NCBI RefSeq assembly: GCF_000526195.1 | Contig: NZ_JAFP01000001.1 | Span: forward strand, 656,001 to 720,000 | Direction: 5' to 3' | DNA length: 64,000 nucleotides | DNA from: Hippea sp. KM1 | GTDB taxonomy: Bacteria > Campylobacterota_A > Desulfurellia > Desulfurellales > Hippeaceae | Shown here: positions 52,619-63,438 of the stretch, piece after piece | Numbering within the stretch: position 1 is the first letter of the stretch | How the letters are laid out: each line of letters opens with the position of its first letter | Position numbers and translations under genes: made by a program | The notes under the pieces: model-generated | What the model was told of the DNA's origin: nothing | What the model saw: the letters and a program-made list of their open reading frames with translations, nothing else | The model's database searches: none

Positions 52619-53368
52619 ATGAATAAGAAGCTGGATTTCTTTCTGATTCTTGCCTCTATTATAGCGATTGTTTCGGTGCCATTATTTTACAGGGGCGTCT
52701 ATAGGAAGTTTAAAGAGCTGACAATCAGAAGGGCCTTTGTTTCTGCCGAGGTTATCGGCGTTTCCCCTTCCTATGTGTCGGGTATGGTTGTTAAGATGTA
52801 TGTTAGGCGGGGGGATACGGTCAAGAAGGGGCAGATGATCGCTCTAATCGATGATACGCTCTATAAGGCCGAGGTGGACAAAAAGCTCAGCAGGCTGAAT
52901 AGCATGTCGTTTGAGCTTAAGAGGTTTGATAACAATACGAACGGCTATGCCTATATGAGCTTAAAGAACGAGATCGATGTTCTAAAGAAGGATGTAAAGC
53001 TATCCCAGCTTATGCTTTCATACACCAGGGTTGTAAGCCCCATTGACGGTGTGGTGGCAAAGGATGTTGTCCATGTAGGCGATAGCGTTTCTCCATCAAC
53101 GGTAATAGCGTATCTGTATAAACCCAAAACCCTCTATGTTAAGGCGTTTGTCGATGTTGATGATACTGAGTATCTGAGGGTTGGGCAGATCGTTAAACTT
53201 AGGGATATAGCCACAAAGGCAGAAACATTGGGCAAGATAGAGAAGTTGGGCGACATAGATGTCTTCAGTGTTTGTAATAACGGCGATGTGTTGCCCGTTG
53301 AGATCTCTTTGAAGTCCAACAAGGGCTTTAACTTCTCAGATCCCGTTGTCGTTATTGTAAAAAAATAA
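52619..53368 (+). CDS. HlyD-family membrane-fusion-like protein
   Basis: This 249-residue protein has one N-terminal membrane anchor (about 6-25). A biotinyl-lipoyl-like half (VSGMVVKMYVRRGDTVKKGQ), a short coiled coil and the second half (SPIDGVVAKDVVHVGDSV) follow, then a beta-barrel part, as in periplasmic adaptor proteins. No transporter or outer-membrane partner is adjacent. ATG 52619 is chosen over TTG 52589; the ribosome site is weak. It overlaps nfi by one base. Confidence 0.8.
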   Translation: MNKKLDFFLILASIIAIVSVPLFYRGVYRKFKELTIRRAFVSAEVIGVSPSYVSGMVVKMYVRRGDTVKKGQMIALIDDTLYKAEVDKKLSRLNSMSFELKRFDNNTNGYAYMSLKNEIDVLKKDVKLSQLMLSYTRVVSPIDGVVAKDVVHVGDSVSPSTVIAYLYKPKTLYVKAFVDVDDTEYLRVGQIVKLRDIATKAETLGKIEKLGDIDVFSVCNNGDVLPVEISLKSNKGFNFSDPVVVIVKK

Positions 53369-54027
53369 TGGATTTGGAGAAACTTAAGCTTCAACAGCTA
53401 TCCCTGCTGAAGAGCCTAAACCTTAAAGATAGAATTAAACCAGACAAGGTTAGGTATGTGGCCGGTATCGATCTAACCTATCTGGATATATGGAAGGCCT
53501 CCACCATTGGCATTGCCTCTTTAGTTGTATGGGATGTTGTTAACAGAAGCGTTGATGATGTGTTCTTCTATGAGGGCAGGGTCGATTTTCCATACATACC
53601 CACATTTTTGGCTTACAGGGAACTGCCCTTGATACTTGGTGTTTACAATAGATGCACCCGTGGTGTCGATGCTTTTATGCTCGACGGTATGGGTATAATG
53701 CACCCAAGAAGGATGGGTATTGCTGCTCACTTCGGCATCGTTTGCGATGCTGTCTCTTTGGGATGTGCCAAATCCCACCTGATAGGCGAATACAAACTGC
53801 CAGATAGTGTGGGTGAATACAATGCCGTTTTGATAGACGGTGAGGTTGTGGGGTATGTATTGAAGTCTAAGAAGAACGCCAACCCCATCTTTATCTCACC
53901 GGGAAACAACATCACAGCCCAGAGCGCCCTAAAGCTTACGCTTATGTGCTTGAATGGCTATAGGCTCCCTGAGCCAACAAGACTTGCCCACAACTTCCTG
54001 CAGGAATACAGGAGGTCTATTTCATAG
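53368..54027 (+). CDS. nfi: Endonuclease V
   Basis: This 219-residue repair nuclease cuts DNA or RNA next to inosine. The family pattern is clear: YVAGIDLTYLD (first metal aspartate), YIPTFLAYRELP (wedge and catalytic glutamate), FMLDGMGIMHPRRMGIAAHFG and the later CAKSHLIGEY. It fits with adenine deamination being a hot-environment hazard. It overlaps the convergent kinase gene by 11 bases. Confidence 0.94.
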   Translation: MDLEKLKLQQLSLLKSLNLKDRIKPDKVRYVAGIDLTYLDIWKASTIGIASLVVWDVVNRSVDDVFFYEGRVDFPYIPTFLAYRELPLILGVYNRCTRGVDAFMLDGMGIMHPRRMGIAAHFGIVCDAVSLGCAKSHLIGEYKLPDSVGEYNAVLIDGEVVGYVLKSKKNANPIFISPGNNITAQSALKLTLMCLNGYRLPEPTRLAHNFLQEYRRSIS

Positions 54028-56908
54028 GCAGGTATATCTTGAATGCCGCGCCGTCTTCTGTGTTGTATGCCTCTATCCTGCCGTTTAGGTGCTCCTCTAT
54101 AATGATTTTGCTCATATAAAGGCCAAGCCCCGTCCCTTTTTTGCCCTTTGTTGTAAAATAGGCGTCGAATATGTGTTCTATGACATTCTCATCAATACCG
54201 CCGCCGTTGTCTGTAATGATTATAACCGCATGGTTGCCTTCGGCCCTGGTGGTTATTGTTATGGTCGGTTTCTCTATGTTTCTTTCAATTAGCACATCCC
54301 GGGCGTTGTTTAGTATGTTTAGTATGACATGCTTTAGCTCGTTGCCGTATAGGTTGATCATGCATGAGCAGTTAAAATCGGTCTTTATGGTTATATTTTT
54401 GCTTACAAAGTGGTCCTTGACGATCTTTAGGAGCGTTTCTAAAAGCTCATCAATGTTCGTTGGTTCCTTGACTGTTTGAGGTTTGTAGAAATTCCTGAAG
54501 TCCTCTATGGTTGCGTTTAGGTGCTGAATGTACTGCAATATGTTGGACAGCTTATTTGTCAGGGTCTTGCTATCGAGCCTGTCCATCTGAATCTGTATTA
54601 AGAGGTTGTTAACGGTGGCCGATATGGCGTTTATGGGTTGCCTCCATTGATGGGCTATCATGCCCATCATCTCGCCCAATGCTGCTGCTTTGGATTGTTG
54701 CATAATCATCCTGTCTTTTTTTATGTTTTTCTCTGTTTCTTCCTTTACCCTTTTGCTTAGCTGCCTATTTAGGTTGTTCAGCTGTTGTTGCAACCTCTTT
54801 ATAGGTGTTATATCGACGGCTGTGATGAGCGTGATCTCTTCGTTTTTTATCTTTATCCTTGTGGCCTTGGCCAGCGTGTTCAAGATGGTGTTGTCCTTTT
54901 TTATCAGGTTTAGTTCAAATGTATCCCTGTTTTCTATCGCCTCTTTGATCTTCTCTGTTTCTCCTTGCGGCACCAGGTCTGATATGTTCTTATCCTTTAA
55001 CTCGCTTTCTGAATATTTAAGCGAATGGAGCGCCATATCGTTAAATTGCAGACATCTTCCGTCTGTTTTGATGAGTATTGTCATCTGGATGGAGTTCTCC
55101 ATTATGGCCTCAAAGTTCTTTAGCGATTCCTCAAGCCTCTTTTTTGTCTTTAGTAACTCTTCGTTTTTCCTGTAAAATACCCTTATTACCCAGAATAGAA
55201 ACAGGATGACTATAATCGAGATAGAAACAATCTGAATTATGCGCTTTTTGTATATCTCTTGGGATTGTTTTGAAAGCTGGTATGAGCTGATTTTCTCTAT
55301 ACCGCTTTTTCCGATTTTGGATAGAGCCTTGTTGATTATGCTTGCAAGTGTGGGCAGGTTTTTGTTTATTGCCATGGATATCTCTATATATCTGTTTGTT
55401 GTTCCAACGATCTTTATGTTTTTTAGGCGGTATCTCTTTATGTAATAGCTTGCTATTAGTGGGCTTATCACGCAGAAGTAATTGGGGTCTTCCTCCAGCC
55501 TTTTAAACACCTCATCAAATGTGTTGAATTCCTTGATGGTAATCTGCGGGCACTGCTCCTTTATAATCAATGTCGGGGATGTGTATTTTGCCTCTAAGAA
55601 TATCTTGTTTTTAAGCTCGCATAGGGAGTTTACAAAGCTTATATTGCTCTTTGAGAAGATGAATAGCTCCTGCTTTGCATACGGTTTGGTGAAGATGGCC
55701 TGTTTTTTTAGAAGTTTTTTGTTGCCCATAGTGGGCAAAAGCTGACATTTGCCCTCCCTGAAGAACCTCAGCGATTCATTGAAGTTGCGGGTTTTTAAGA
55801 GTTTGAATTTGATGTGTGTGATGTTTGAGATCTTCTTTAGCAACTCTATGGATATGCCTTTTGCGCCGCCGTCTTTGTCTATGAATTCAACAGGCCTTAG
55901 ATTTGGCCTTATACAGTATGTTATTGATGGGTGTTTTTTTATAAACTCCATCTCCCTTTTGGTAAACAGGGCCGATTTATGCGGTGTTTTTATGTATTCA
56001 TCAATGTTTAGCGGTGGCTCTTTGTTTAGTATCTTTGCAAACTTTGATGTTATCTTCTTTATGATGTTTTTGTCTATAAAGCCTAAGCTAAACACATCGG
56101 GCATGATCACATCCTCTATCATGTTTGCCTCAAATATTAAGGCTTTTAGGGATTTTTTTGATGAGTATTTGTTGTATATGATATGTGCGATCTCGTCTTT
56201 GTGAGAAAGGGCGTATTGCCACCCCTTTATTGATGCCTCTGTGAATCTCTTTACTATGTCTGGGTGTTTTTCTAAAAATTCCCTTGATGTGAAGAGGTTG
56301 CCTGAGTATGCAAATATGCCGTAATTGGACGGGTCGATGATGTTGTATGGTATGCCTAACTCGTTGAGCATGTATGTCTGGTTGGTTATGTATATGGGTA
56401 TCGCATCGACCTTGCCATCGATAAAGGGTTTTATTGTGTATGAGCCCTTCTTCTTGATGATCTTTTTGAAGTGTATGTTGAACTTCTTTATTAGAAGTCC
56501 GACGCTGGTAAGTGTTATGTCGGTGCCGCCGCAATACAACACCTTGTTGTTTAGCTGCTTGGGGAAAAGTATGGAGGGTTTAACTGCCAAAACCAATGGT
56601 GATTTCTTAAAAAAGTTTGCGACAATAACTATGGGTTTTCTGTTTATGATGGATGTGAATATATCGCTGCCTGCAACACCGAACTCAACCTTCCCGTTTA
56701 AGACATCATCGACCACCGCACCGTGGTCGTATTCTATAATATCCACATCCAGGCCTGCATCTTTATAAAAGCCCTTCTCCTTGGCGGCTATGTATCCTGC
56801 AAACTCGAATTGATACTTCCAGTTTAGCTTTAGCCTCACCTTTATGGGTTTTGCAGCGGATAGTTGAGCTATAAGGATGATAAAGAGGGCTATTAAAAAT
56901 CGTTTCAT
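54017..56908 (-). CDS. Histidine kinase with two fused solute-binding sensor domains
   Basis: This 963-residue kinase begins with a signal peptide (1-19) and an NMT1/THI5-like binding domain (about 22-300, LKLNWKYQFEFAGYIAAKEKGFYKDAGLDV). A second, family-3-type binding domain (about 315-555, ITYCIRPNLRPVEFIDKDGGAKGISIELL) follows, then one membrane helix (~570-590) and a PAS domain. The kinase core has GMIAHQWRQPINAIS (phospho-acceptor histidine), an NALD/NARDV N-box, DNGGGI and GTGLGLYMS. It should sense two small molecules in the periplasm. It overlaps the PAS-EAL response regulator by 4 bases, an obvious partner. Confidence 0.9.
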   Translation of the reverse strand: MKRFLIALFIILIAQLSAAKPIKVRLKLNWKYQFEFAGYIAAKEKGFYKDAGLDVDIIEYDHGAVVDDVLNGKVEFGVAGSDIFTSIINRKPIVIVANFFKKSPLVLAVKPSILFPKQLNNKVLYCGGTDITLTSVGLLIKKFNIHFKKIIKKKGSYTIKPFIDGKVDAIPIYITNQTYMLNELGIPYNIIDPSNYGIFAYSGNLFTSREFLEKHPDIVKRFTEASIKGWQYALSHKDEIAHIIYNKYSSKKSLKALIFEANMIEDVIMPDVFSLGFIDKNIIKKITSKFAKILNKEPPLNIDEYIKTPHKSALFTKREMEFIKKHPSITYCIRPNLRPVEFIDKDGGAKGISIELLKKISNITHIKFKLLKTRNFNESLRFFREGKCQLLPTMGNKKLLKKQAIFTKPYAKQELFIFSKSNISFVNSLCELKNKIFLEAKYTSPTLIIKEQCPQITIKEFNTFDEVFKRLEEDPNYFCVISPLIASYYIKRYRLKNIKIVGTTNRYIEISMAINKNLPTLASIINKALSKIGKSGIEKISSYQLSKQSQEIYKKRIIQIVSISIIVILFLFWVIRVFYRKNEELLKTKKRLEESLKNFEAIMENSIQMTILIKTDGRCLQFNDMALHSLKYSESELKDKNISDLVPQGETEKIKEAIENRDTFELNLIKKDNTILNTLAKATRIKIKNEEITLITAVDITPIKRLQQQLNNLNRQLSKRVKEETEKNIKKDRMIMQQSKAAALGEMMGMIAHQWRQPINAISATVNNLLIQIQMDRLDSKTLTNKLSNILQYIQHLNATIEDFRNFYKPQTVKEPTNIDELLETLLKIVKDHFVSKNITIKTDFNCSCMINLYGNELKHVILNILNNARDVLIERNIEKPTITITTRAEGNHAVIIITDNGGGIDENVIEHIFDAYFTTKGKKGTGLGLYMSKIIIEEHLNGRIEAYNTEDGAAFKIYLPMK

Positions 56909-58896
56909 TGCTCTATTGAGGGTTGCGGTTTGCCTATATAGAACCCCTGCGAATAGTCTATGCCCAAGGATTTTACTATCTTGAATATCTCCTCATCTGA
57001 GACAAACTCGGCAATGGTTTTATACCCCTGTCTATCTGCAAACATCTTTATGGCCTCAACAATGTCTAAATTGCTTTTGTTGTCCTTTATGTTTTTTATG
57101 AGCGATGCGTCTATCTTTATGTAATCCGGTTCGTATTCTATGAGCCTGGAGAAGTTTGAATAGCCGCTGCCAAAATCGTCTATGGCTATCTTGGCGCCGA
57201 CCTTTTTCATATTCTTTATGAAGTTTTTTACTAAATGCTCATGGTGGATGCCCTCATCCTCCAAAAGCTCTATAACGAGCCTCTTTGCTATCTCTGGATT
57301 TTCCCTCAATCTAACGATTAGCTTTTCCCTTGTGATTTTGTCCTCTATATCTATGGATGATAGGTTTATAGAGACCTCTTTTTTGGTCTTTTCTATGGTG
57401 CTTAAGGTGTTTTCTATCACTATGTGGGTTATCTGTTTGTAATACTTGCCTATCTTGGCTATATTGAGGAATGTAAACGGCGTTAGTATGTTGCCGTTTG
57501 AGTCGATAAGCCTGACCAGGGATTCGTATTTCTCTATCTTTCCCGTCTTGTTGTTGAATATTGGTTGATAGTATGAAACAATCCTTTTGTGTTTTATGGC
57601 ATCCCTTATGGTCTTTAGCATCTTTATGTTGTCTTTTGCCTTCTGTTGTATCTGCTGATATAGACCGTCTGCCTTGACTATGTCGAGCTTTTCCCTTTCG
57701 GCCTTCTTTATGCCTAAGGTTGCGTTTTTTAGCATGTATTCCTTCTGCTGGGTGAAGCTTAAAAGGAGCTCTATCTCGTATTCGTATTCACCGATCTTTA
57801 TCGGCCTGTTTCTGACCCACTCTTGAAAGTATTTTATGTTTTCCAAAAACTCATTTATGTTCTCCTCAGAGATTCTATATTCCTTTAAGAAGGCAAACTC
57901 GCCGTTGTCTAACTTGTATGAAAAGTCAAACGAGAATCCGTTGAATGTAAACCTCTTCGCCTCTTCTAAGAATCTATCCTGCAATTGCTCAAGCATCTCC
58001 TGGCTGTATAGGTTTTCAAGATCCTCATAATCCTCGATTTTGCACAGAACCAGCAACGGGTTTTTCAACTCGTTTATCTTATCCTGTAAGACCTTTTTGG
58101 GGTTGATGAGGTCTGTTACATTCTCCCTTACGGCTATGTATTCTTTTATGTTGCCTTTTTCGTCAAGTATGGGGGCTATGTGGGCCCTCATATAGATGGC
58201 CTTGCCGTCCTTTGTTCTGTTTTTTACAAGCCCCTTCCATATCCTTTTGGATTGTATGGTATCCCATAGGTCTTTAAAGGCCTCAGACGGCATATCCGGG
58301 TGTCTTACTATATTGTGCGGCTTGCCCAGAAGCTCCTCTTTTGAGTATCCGCTGGATTGGCAGAACTTCTCGTTTACATATGTTATGATGCCCTTGGGGT
58401 CGGTCTTTGTAACGGTAAAGCTTTCATCTATTATGTGCCTGTATTGCTCAAGCAGGGCTATAGCCCTATCCCTTTCCTTCCTTAGAATGGTTTTTTCTAT
58501 GACCCTATAGACTGAATCCATAAGCTGGTCAATGTCTATGGGCTTTATTATGTATCCATAGACGCCTATCTTTATGCTTTCTAAGAGATACTCCATGTTG
58601 TTGAAGGCGGTTATGATGAGTATGGGCACCTTTCTGTCTATCTCTTTAATCTTTTTGACCATCGTTATGCCGTCCATTTTTGGCATGTTGATGTCTGTTA
58701 TTACGATGTCGTGCCGATTCTTCTTAAACTTCTCAAGCCCCTCTAAGCCGTCTTTGGCTTCCTCTATGTTATTGAAGAAGTGGCTTAGAAGCTGGATGGT
58801 TTCCAGCCTTATGCTATCATCGTCCTCGACATATAGAACGGTTATGTTTTCCTCGTCTTTTATCTGCTGGATTTTATCAAATAGCTCTTTATCCAT
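56905..58896 (-). CDS. Response regulator with PAS, degenerate GGDEF and EAL domains
   Basis: This 663-residue protein has an N-terminal receiver domain with the phosphorylatable aspartate in IVITDINMPKMDG (~57) and a PAS domain (~160-270). A GGDEF-like region without the catalytic motif (reads DNGEF) and a C-terminal EAL domain (~425-655) follow. The EAL motif reads ESL, but the catalytic glutamate and later metal residues (NLSS, ELLEDE, DDFGSGYSN, KIDASL, SQGFYIGKP) are kept, so c-di-GMP hydrolysis is likely. It is first in the operon with the two-sensor kinase. The start has no ribosome site and lies about 2 bases after the predicted transcription start. Confidence 0.9.
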   Translation of the reverse strand: MDKELFDKIQQIKDEENITVLYVEDDDSIRLETIQLLSHFFNNIEEAKDGLEGLEKFKKNRHDIVITDINMPKMDGITMVKKIKEIDRKVPILIITAFNNMEYLLESIKIGVYGYIIKPIDIDQLMDSVYRVIEKTILRKERDRAIALLEQYRHIIDESFTVTKTDPKGIITYVNEKFCQSSGYSKEELLGKPHNIVRHPDMPSEAFKDLWDTIQSKRIWKGLVKNRTKDGKAIYMRAHIAPILDEKGNIKEYIAVRENVTDLINPKKVLQDKINELKNPLLVLCKIEDYEDLENLYSQEMLEQLQDRFLEEAKRFTFNGFSFDFSYKLDNGEFAFLKEYRISEENINEFLENIKYFQEWVRNRPIKIGEYEYEIELLLSFTQQKEYMLKNATLGIKKAEREKLDIVKADGLYQQIQQKAKDNIKMLKTIRDAIKHKRIVSYYQPIFNNKTGKIEKYESLVRLIDSNGNILTPFTFLNIAKIGKYYKQITHIVIENTLSTIEKTKKEVSINLSSIDIEDKITREKLIVRLRENPEIAKRLVIELLEDEGIHHEHLVKNFIKNMKKVGAKIAIDDFGSGYSNFSRLIEYEPDYIKIDASLIKNIKDNKSNLDIVEAIKMFADRQGYKTIAEFVSDEEIFKIVKSLGIDYSQGFYIGKPQPSIEQ

Positions 58897-62592: not shown

Positions 62593-63438
62593 ATGAACGC
62601 TGGTGGTATAGTTCTAACGCTGTTGGCAGTTGTCGGAGCATTTGTCTATGAGGGTGGTAATCCTGCTGTTCTAATCCAGATCGGTGAGTATATAGTCTTG
62701 TTCGGTGCTTTTTTTGGCATGTTGCTCTCCAACGCCTCACCCAGCGCATTGAAGGGCTCATTTGGTGTTATCTTGGGTATTGCAAAGCCCGATCCATACA
62801 ACAAGAAGAACTATTTAGAGTTGTTGAAGATCGTCTATGATCTATCCACAAAGGTCAGAAAAGACGGTATTCTATCGTTAGAGGCCGTTGTCGATGATCC
62901 GGAATCATCCCCGATTTTGCAGGATGCAACCTTCTTTTTAAAGAACAAGGAGGCAAGAAGCCTCTTGATCGACGCCTTAAGGAATATCGTTACCGGTATT
63001 GAGGTGGAAAAATTAGAGGAGATGCTGGATACCAACATAGAGAGTATAGAGAAGGAGGCCATGGCGCCTGCAAAGATGGTGGGAGTATTGGCTGAGTCGA
63101 TGCCTGGTATGGGTATCGTTGCAGCTGTTATGGGTGTTATCCTGACGATGGGCGCCTTGGGTGGTTCTATTCTTGTAATTGGTGAGCATATCGCAGCAGC
63201 CCTTACAGGAACATTCCTGGGTTTGCTTATGTGTTATGGAATATTCGGTCCTATGGCCAAGTATGCCGAATTCAAAACAGAAGATATGGTTGCCTATCTC
63301 AACGCCTTAAAGACAGGCATAATATACATAGCCAAGGGTGATGCACCGATTATAGCCATGGAGGCTGTAAGGGAGAGTATTCCACCACTTGCAAGGCCTG
63401 AGTTTGATGAGGCCGAATCCTTTGTAAAGGGTAAGTGA
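62593..63438 (+). CDS. motA: Flagellar motor stator protein MotA
   Basis: This 281-residue protein has four membrane helices (about 5-22, 33-50, 170-192 and 203-225) and a cytoplasmic domain with charged residues (ARSLLIDALRNIVTG). Family motifs MPGMGIVAAVMGVILTMG with the critical proline and LTGTFLGLLMCYGIFGPMAKYAE are present. With MotB it forms the ion-driven stator that turns the flagellum. GCAGGAGG lies just before ATG. Codon use is smoother than in neighbours, hinting at high expression. Confidence 0.95.
   Translation: MNAGGIVLTLLAVVGAFVYEGGNPAVLIQIGEYIVLFGAFFGMLLSNASPSALKGSFGVILGIAKPDPYNKKNYLELLKIVYDLSTKVRKDGILSLEAVVDDPESSPILQDATFFLKNKEARSLLIDALRNIVTGIEVEKLEEMLDTNIESIEKEAMAPAKMVGVLAESMPGMGIVAAVMGVILTMGALGGSILVIGEHIAAALTGTFLGLLMCYGIFGPMAKYAEFKTEDMVAYLNALKTGIIYIAKGDAPIIAMEAVRESIPPLARPEFDEAESFVKGK

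Follow-up and report, generated by a model that had tools for sequence, protein, structure and literature searches.

The window analysed here, a stretch of 64,000 bases from Hippea sp. KM1, harbours two adjacent open reading frames (ORFs), coding for a response regulator and, behind it, a sensor histidine kinase (Table 1). Together these probably form a two-component system by which a small-molecule signal outside the inner membrane alters the breakdown of cyclic dimeric guanosine monophosphate (c-di-GMP). The sensor combines two different periplasmic binding domains, NMT1 and SBP_bac_3, and the regulator ends in a predicted phosphodiesterase domain.

Pfam searches with the kinase returned NMT1 (E 1e-39, residues 34-239, 137.1 bits against a cut-off of 20.5), SBP_bac_3 (E 7.6e-14, residues 329-536), PAS_9 (E 3.6e-10) and HATPase_c (E 2.9e-19). 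Nothing except PAS S-box exceeded its curated NCBIfam cut-off among the best 25 matches of each protein. Apart from the N-terminal signal peptide, a single hydrophobic helix lies within the chain (19-residue windows with first residues 552-563). An AlphaFold2 model covering residues 21-560 shows each of the two binding domains as a complete fold (mean predicted local distance difference test score (pLDDT) 88.8, predicted template modelling score (pTM) 0.58, the relative placing of the domains being less sure). The original prediction, made from the DNA letters, of two complete periplasmic binding domains in one chain before one membrane helix is thus borne out by Pfam, by the modelled folds and by the hydrophobicity scan. 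In the cytoplasmic part, H753 is present in 11 of 11 kinase rows, one of which is a paralogue, and N864, N868, D900, G904, G925 and G927 are kept in all 11 as well. The protein ends with HATPase_c, and no Response_reg or Hpt match was found on it with Pfam up to E 0.1.

The regulator matched EAL (E 9.9e-58), Response_reg and several PAS models in Pfam. Its EAL domain matches the fold of the PdeA EAL domain (3u2e, Z 29.9), and E458, N511, E543, D573, D574, K594, E630 and Q650, which we take to be the catalytic residues, are invariant across all 12 family rows. It is predicted to be a c-di-GMP phosphodiesterase. The region of the regulator lacking a Pfam match, in which no GGDEF match was found up to E 0.1, shows the order of elements of a GGDEF domain, and GGDEF-EAL structures, e.g. 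5m3c, align across it. The signature GG[DE]EF occurs in 0 of 12 family rows. An EAL domain of the ESL variant with its catalytic residues kept, next to a dead GGDEF domain, had been proposed before; throughout the family alignment the catalytic residues are kept and the GGDEF signature is lost. The receiver residues D68, T96 and K118 are kept wherever a row holds them (10, 11 and 11 of 12 rows, respectively). The best PDB matches of the PAS domain were Aer (8dik, E 1.4e-28) and 3ewk (E 3e-28), and its RHPDMP motif aligned with 8dik; RHPD is kept in all rows holding the motif, while one row has V for M. Aer binds flavin adenine dinucleotide (FAD), and because the regulator PAS resembles the Aer PAS a redox input is likely. 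Neither this Aer type nor the PAS domain inside the kinase had been named in the original prediction. The AlphaFold2 model of the regulator had a mean pLDDT of 83.5 and a pTM of 0.53, with the relative domain placing again less sure.

The pair was followed in 41 genomes, with E 1e-60 or better as threshold for the regulator and at least 46 % identity for a close kinase orthologue. The regulator is present in 12 of the 41, all of which belong to the window's own family (16 genomes). A close kinase orthologue occurs in exactly these 12, adjacent to the regulator gene and behind it. Contig ends cut one or both pair genes in G004, G013 and G015. The kinase is the sole full-length match in its own 1.742-Mb genome, a single contig of 1,742,311 bases, and the regulator has one match at the above threshold. 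The surroundings of the pair vary. The side with endonuclease V is common to the window, G007 and G008 and the side with a ferredoxin-oxidoreductase to the window and G007, while other neighbours within the family are EamA transporters, an FtsJ-like methyltransferase, ankyrin repeats and cytochrome bd. The two genes therefore travel together, not with one pathway, in agreement with the earlier view that kinase and phosphodiesterase regulator form one unit.

The outer domain of the sensor appears to be its most constrained part. Its fold matches ThiY (3ix1, Z 31.5, 286 aligned, root-mean-square deviation (rmsd) 2.5) and also the thiamin-bound 4nmy (Z 31.1, 280 aligned, rmsd 2.2). Compared with nine orthologues (G007 and G015, which are cut or broken, were omitted), the window kinase has a mean identity of 62.7 % for NMT1, 56.4 % for HisKA, 51.1 % for HATPase, 40.4 % for PAS, 39.7 % for SBP_bac_3 and 32.5 % for the membrane linker. 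NMT1 thus ranks first of six kinase regions in this comparison, and second after HisKA when all pairs are compared. In an alignment of 27 tandem sensors, NMT1 has 48 positions with the same residue in 25 rows or more. This conservation points to a ligand site. ThiY and the family alignment have in common the Trp of LNW and a P-x-x-Y-G stretch, which is too little to name the ligand. NMT1/THI5 domains are familiar mostly from transport and thiamin synthesis, and the CCCFC motif has its role in the hydroxymethylpyrimidine (HMP) synthase Thi5. HMP synthase activity of the NMT1 domain was considered and rejected because the CCCFC motif is absent, the aligned profile stretch (YGifaysenL) being without cysteine.

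The inner domain presents a different picture. By sequence it is nearest to BvgS VFT2 and RmcA, and in fold it resembles the binding domain of RmcA (7ejg, Z 27.4, 237 aligned, rmsd 2.6) and BvgS VFT2 (3mpk, Z 26.5, 231 aligned, rmsd 2.4). Position 337 is W in 22 of the 27 sensors and position 400 is R in 23. D481 is found in 14 of the 16 sensors outside Desulfurellales and in 0 of the 11 within; these 11 rows have an acid at neither column 481 nor 482, either of which fits the canonical acid column, depending on the alignment. We take these aromatic, arginine and acidic positions to be the canonical amino-acid pocket of SBP_bac_3. The window kinase has L337, L400 and I481/S482, where most or many relatives have W, R and D. 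At 337/400/481, G004 has F, L and S and G007 has L, L and A, and R400 is replaced also in G010 (K) and in a paralogue in G011 (P). Because of L337, L400 and I481 the inner domain of the window kinase is, judged by its residues, no canonical amino-acid site; its role may be to relay movement or to bind a different ligand. In ancestors the inner domain probably served as a true binding site, since W337 and R400 are widely kept and D481 is common outside Desulfurellales. Only 9 positions of SBP_bac_3, against the 48 of NMT1, are identical in at least 25 of the 27 rows, and it looks as if only one of the two pockets still resembles a conserved binding site. Within the family, inner domains grade naturally from those with an amino-acid-type pocket to one that has lost it, a series suited to testing the role of the second flytrap.

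These data bear on the suggestion, part of the original prediction, that the kinase integrates two nutrients. Both binding domains would then bind ligands, the inner one having shifted to a non-amino-acid ligand. Both are complete folds, the ancestral pocket described above is in line with such a role, and the tandem domains of CdgH bind different amino acids (PMC5431781). However, the inner domain of the window kinase lacks the aromatic residue, the arginine and (family-wide) the acid, and it is far less conserved than NMT1 both in mean identity and in invariant positions, so that integration of two nutrients is doubtful, though a real possibility. The loss of ligand-binding residues from both domains, envisaged at the time as a counter-argument, was found for the inner pocket, whereas NMT1 is strongly conserved.

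Within the variable inner domain, Cys332 (window 55913-55915) is present in 27 of 27 sensors and Cys388 (55745-55747) in 26 of 27, across phyla. The two may form a conserved disulfide or a redox switch. It could be argued that the kinase, rather than reading a ligand directly, responds to a different protein in the periplasm or to the redox state, with Cys332/Cys388 as disulfide switch; the persistence of both cysteines is consistent with this, and solute-binding proteins have been described to dock on kinases (PMC9602780). A structural disulfide would be equally conserved, however, and the conservation of NMT1 points to a ligand site, which makes such switching quite improbable.

In the mechanism that we favour, the outer NMT1 domain would bind a small molecule in the periplasm; thiamin or its pyrimidine precursor are the ligands of the closest folds. 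The inner SBP_bac_3 domain would mainly relay movement to the membrane helix, the PAS domain and the kinase core, as assumed for tandem flytrap kinases. The kinase would phosphorylate or dephosphorylate Asp68 of the co-encoded regulator, and the state of Asp68 would set the phosphodiesterase activity of the EAL domain. Through its Aer-type PAS the regulator probably also receives a redox input from the cytoplasm, and the dead GGDEF domain may be a scaffold or a guanosine triphosphate (GTP)-sensing relay. A more specific version is a three-part switch, in which the periplasmic level of a thiamin-precursor-like compound, sensed by NMT1, gates phosphorylation, the inner flytrap is the transmission part and the Aer-type PAS, binding FAD, adds redox information. 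This elaboration is unlikely to hold in all its parts; if true, vitamin supply and energy state would decide whether the bacterium stays or leaves.

The NMT1 - SBP_bac_3 tandem is not unique to this kinase. Named genomes were scanned with two exact peptide patterns, which gave 32 loci; because only these two patterns were used, the spread is a lower bound. Eight loci (L062-L069) are pair loci of the family, L086 is the G011 paralogue and 23 are others, of which 18 were scanned with Pfam (L071, L074, L077, L079 and L093 lie outside that scan). NMT1 and SBP_bac_3 are in one chain in 13 of these 18 and not in L087, L088, L089, L091 and L092. The survey of this domain order across bacteria, proposed with the original prediction, thus yielded 13 Pfam-checked proteins, nine of them with a kinase (seven from Arcobacteraceae, one each from a Methylomonas and a Piscirickettsiaceae metagenome-assembled genome) and four with GGDEF (Arcobacter vandammei, Aliarcobacter, Cycloclasticus and Nautiliales). 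In a tree of the 27 sensors, like alignments A5 and A6 made from chosen subsets, the Cycloclasticus cyclase groups with two kinases with strong support; the placing of the long rows L058 and L090 is uncertain. An arrangement that resembles an unfused tandem is seen in L088 (5040-10878) and L091 (771-7072), where one kinase gene carries the NMT1 sensor and a second one the SBP_bac_3 sensor; these genes adjoin in L088, flanked on either side by REC genes, and lie near each other in L091. In Campylobacterota, Desulfurellales and Gammaproteobacteria, NMT1/THI5 domains here belong to a sensor module carried by both kinases and cyclases. Full-text literature searches, covering few subscription papers, listed no paper that by its title and abstract deals with NMT1 in kinase, GGDEF or cyclase sensors.

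G020, a genome of the same class, appears to provide the best comparative support for c-di-GMP breakdown as output, although this is one genome with a split sensor. At L060:2430-6748 an NMT1 ORF and an SBP_bac_3-kinase-receiver ORF are found in successive frames. The next ORF, overlapping the end of the hybrid kinase, codes for REC followed by an HD domain (Pfam HD_5, E 1.9e-32) with HDIGK and GSGYP. Its best PDB match is the HD-GYP protein 4mcw (E 1.5e-59), titled metal dependent phosphohydrolase. HD-GYP and EAL are unrelated types of c-di-GMP phosphodiesterase; the same sensor paired with both argues for c-di-GMP breakdown as output. Judged by domain content, the tandem sensor would be wired to c-di-GMP in at least three ways, i.e. 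by an EAL regulator, by an HD-GYP regulator and by fused GGDEF. The link between tandem sensor and c-di-GMP that had been predicted for the window therefore recurs elsewhere, in the four GGDEF fusions and in the REC-HD-GYP regulator of G020.

Several observations weigh against a dedicated two-component system. The HisKA match of the kinase (E 7.5e-5) is under its Pfam cut-off, its H-box HQWRQP being present. Four of the 16 family genomes (G002, G003, G009 and G012) have neither regulator nor close kinase; three of these are drafts less than 90 % complete, while G003 is 98 % complete. In G007, one contig of 1,694,430 bases, the kinase frame is broken early in NMT1. The break lies at C1:576406-576445 (locus L048); the remaining kinase is open and ~67 % identical. 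Because of this break within NMT1 the sensor of G007 may be dispensable, or the sequence record may be in error. The paralogue in G011 is more distant (34 %) and is without such a regulator on its 7.9-kb contig. The split of the G020 sensor over two frames is, like the break in G007, indistinguishable from a sequencing or assembly error. Regulators of the full layout occur in at least 5 of 14 sensor-bearing genomes (G041, G045, G047, G048 and G050). Next to the related regulators of Arcobacteraceae, BLAST with window pieces at 1e-4 found no adjoining NMT1 or SBP_bac_3 gene in 8 of 8 loci, two of which end near the regulator on one side. Beyond Desulfurellales, none of 17 tandem loci, read with flanks of at most 6 kb, has an ORF combining REC and EAL. 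By these two results, the tight association with an EAL regulator is confined, among the loci analysed, to the family of the window. They would also be expected if the pair were not cognate, the kinase acting on another regulator and the adjacency being incidental. This is very unlikely, however, since wherever a family genome has a close kinase orthologue (12 of 12) the regulator adjoins it, in differing surroundings.

A link of the pair to motility by neighbourhood was rejected as a general feature, as motA/motB homologues are near the pair in just 3 of 12 genomes (window, G007 and G001). The pair had been described as lying next to motility genes; in the window motA starts at 62593, which is 3.7 kb away with three other ORFs between, so that proximity holds and direct adjacency does not. 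In G001 motA/motB are inverted, with an acetyl-CoA-synthetase-like gene between. No motA/motB homologue was found near the pair in G008, G010, G011 and G014, where both flanks were searched, nor in G005, G006 and G013, where one side or a short flank was available; short contigs preclude a judgement for G004 and G015, and part of the flanking ORFs was scanned. Chemoreceptor genes adjoin the pair in G008 and G006 and lie ~6.5 kb off in G005. In G008 (L049:12054-16153) a PAS-GGDEF-EAL gene adjoins the pair as well. The window's own genome (G000, 1.74 Mb) has 9 EAL and 24 GGDEF matches in all, a rich c-di-GMP network. At the other end of the window pair, a convergent endonuclease V gene (53368-54027) shares 11 bases (54017-54027) with the 3' end of the kinase gene. 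A promoter scan gave two promoter-like sites ahead of the regulator against 0.8 expected, which was not used as evidence.

Table 1 Features of the regulator-kinase pair, in window positions
Feature	Position	Strand	Basis
Response regulator gene, 663 amino acids (REC - Aer-type PAS - degenerate GGDEF - EAL)	56905..58896	-	ORF + Pfam
Receiver domain, phospho-acceptor Asp68	58510..58839	-	Pfam Response_reg 1.9e-27
PAS of Aer (FAD) type, RHPDMP motif	58102..58440	-	PDB matches
Degenerate GGDEF, signature DNGEF at residue 330	57652..58101	-	Secondary-structure order, structure alignment
EAL domain (ESL variant)	56926..57612	-	Pfam + fold
ATGA overlap, kinase start codon on regulator stop codon	56905..56908	-	Sequence
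Sensor histidine kinase gene, 963 amino acids (NMT1 - SBP_bac_3 - transmembrane helix - PAS - HisKA - HATPase)	54017..56908	-	ORF + Pfam
Signal peptide, residues 1-19	56852..56908	-	Hydrophobic N-terminus
NMT1/THI5-type binding domain, residues 21-300	56009..56848	-	Pfam PF09084, fold match, conservation
SBP_bac_3 (BvgS/RmcA-type) domain, residues 318-548	55265..55957	-	Pfam PF00497, fold match
Single transmembrane helix, ~residues 556-577	55178..55243	-	Kyte-Doolittle scan
Cytoplasmic PAS of kinase, residues 598-701	54806..55117	-	Pfam PAS/PAS_9
HisKA, phospho-acceptor His753	54476..54679	-	Pfam (below cut-off) + H753 conservation
HATPase_c with N and G boxes	54023..54340	-	Pfam + conserved residues

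Compared with known systems, the pair is a new arrangement of known parts, not a new kind of system. In Pseudomonas aeruginosa a rocR-rocS1 operon codes for a c-di-GMP phosphodiesterase regulator and a kinase (PMC12051241), and the window pair likewise combines a flytrap kinase with a phosphodiesterase response regulator in operon-like order. The RocS1 sensor has two SBP_bac_3 domains and a PAS domain (PMC12051241), whereas the outer domain here is NMT1, and RocS1 is an unorthodox kinase with receiver and Hpt, neither of which was matched on the window kinase. RocR (3sy8), which is among the fold matches of the window regulator, is a REC-EAL protein; in the window regulator the EAL domain does not directly follow REC, as the Aer-type PAS and the degenerate GGDEF are added between them. 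In Aeromonas veronii the BvgS-like kinase ArrS has PAS and a pair of periplasmic binding domains; it is co-transcribed with the REC-EAL regulator ArrR, whose phosphodiesterase activity was hindered by ArrS-mediated phosphorylation (PMC11841396). From this pair the window pair differs as it does from RocS1-RocR, i.e. in NMT1, in the plain kinase and in the extra regulator domains.

As in BvgS and EvgS, tandem flytrap folds stand ahead of one membrane helix and PAS in the window kinase. Foldseek with the sensor model placed BvgS (4q0c) first and EvgS (9ilw) fourth, with the GlnPQ transporter tandem (6h30) between them; TM-scores of 0.33-0.42 by query length for these matches indicate that the relative domain placing differs. 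Unlike in BvgS and EvgS, the outer domain is of NMT1 type, with ThiY as closest fold, so that the two domains are not both SBP_bac_3, and the kinase is without the receiver and Hpt of an unorthodox phosphorelay. Because these defining features of the BvgS type are lacking, the pair was filed as a variant working like these systems, not as a member. Tandem periplasmic binding domains are coupled to c-di-GMP also in CdgH of Vibrio cholerae, which is a diguanylate cyclase in one chain with both domains binding amino acids (PMC5431781), unlike the window pair. The sensors of Arcobacteraceae, Nautiliales and Gammaproteobacteria have the same two domains in the same order as the window kinase. The locus in G020 shares the tandem followed by a phosphodiesterase-type regulator, but with HD-GYP instead of EAL, a hybrid kinase and NMT1 in a separate frame.

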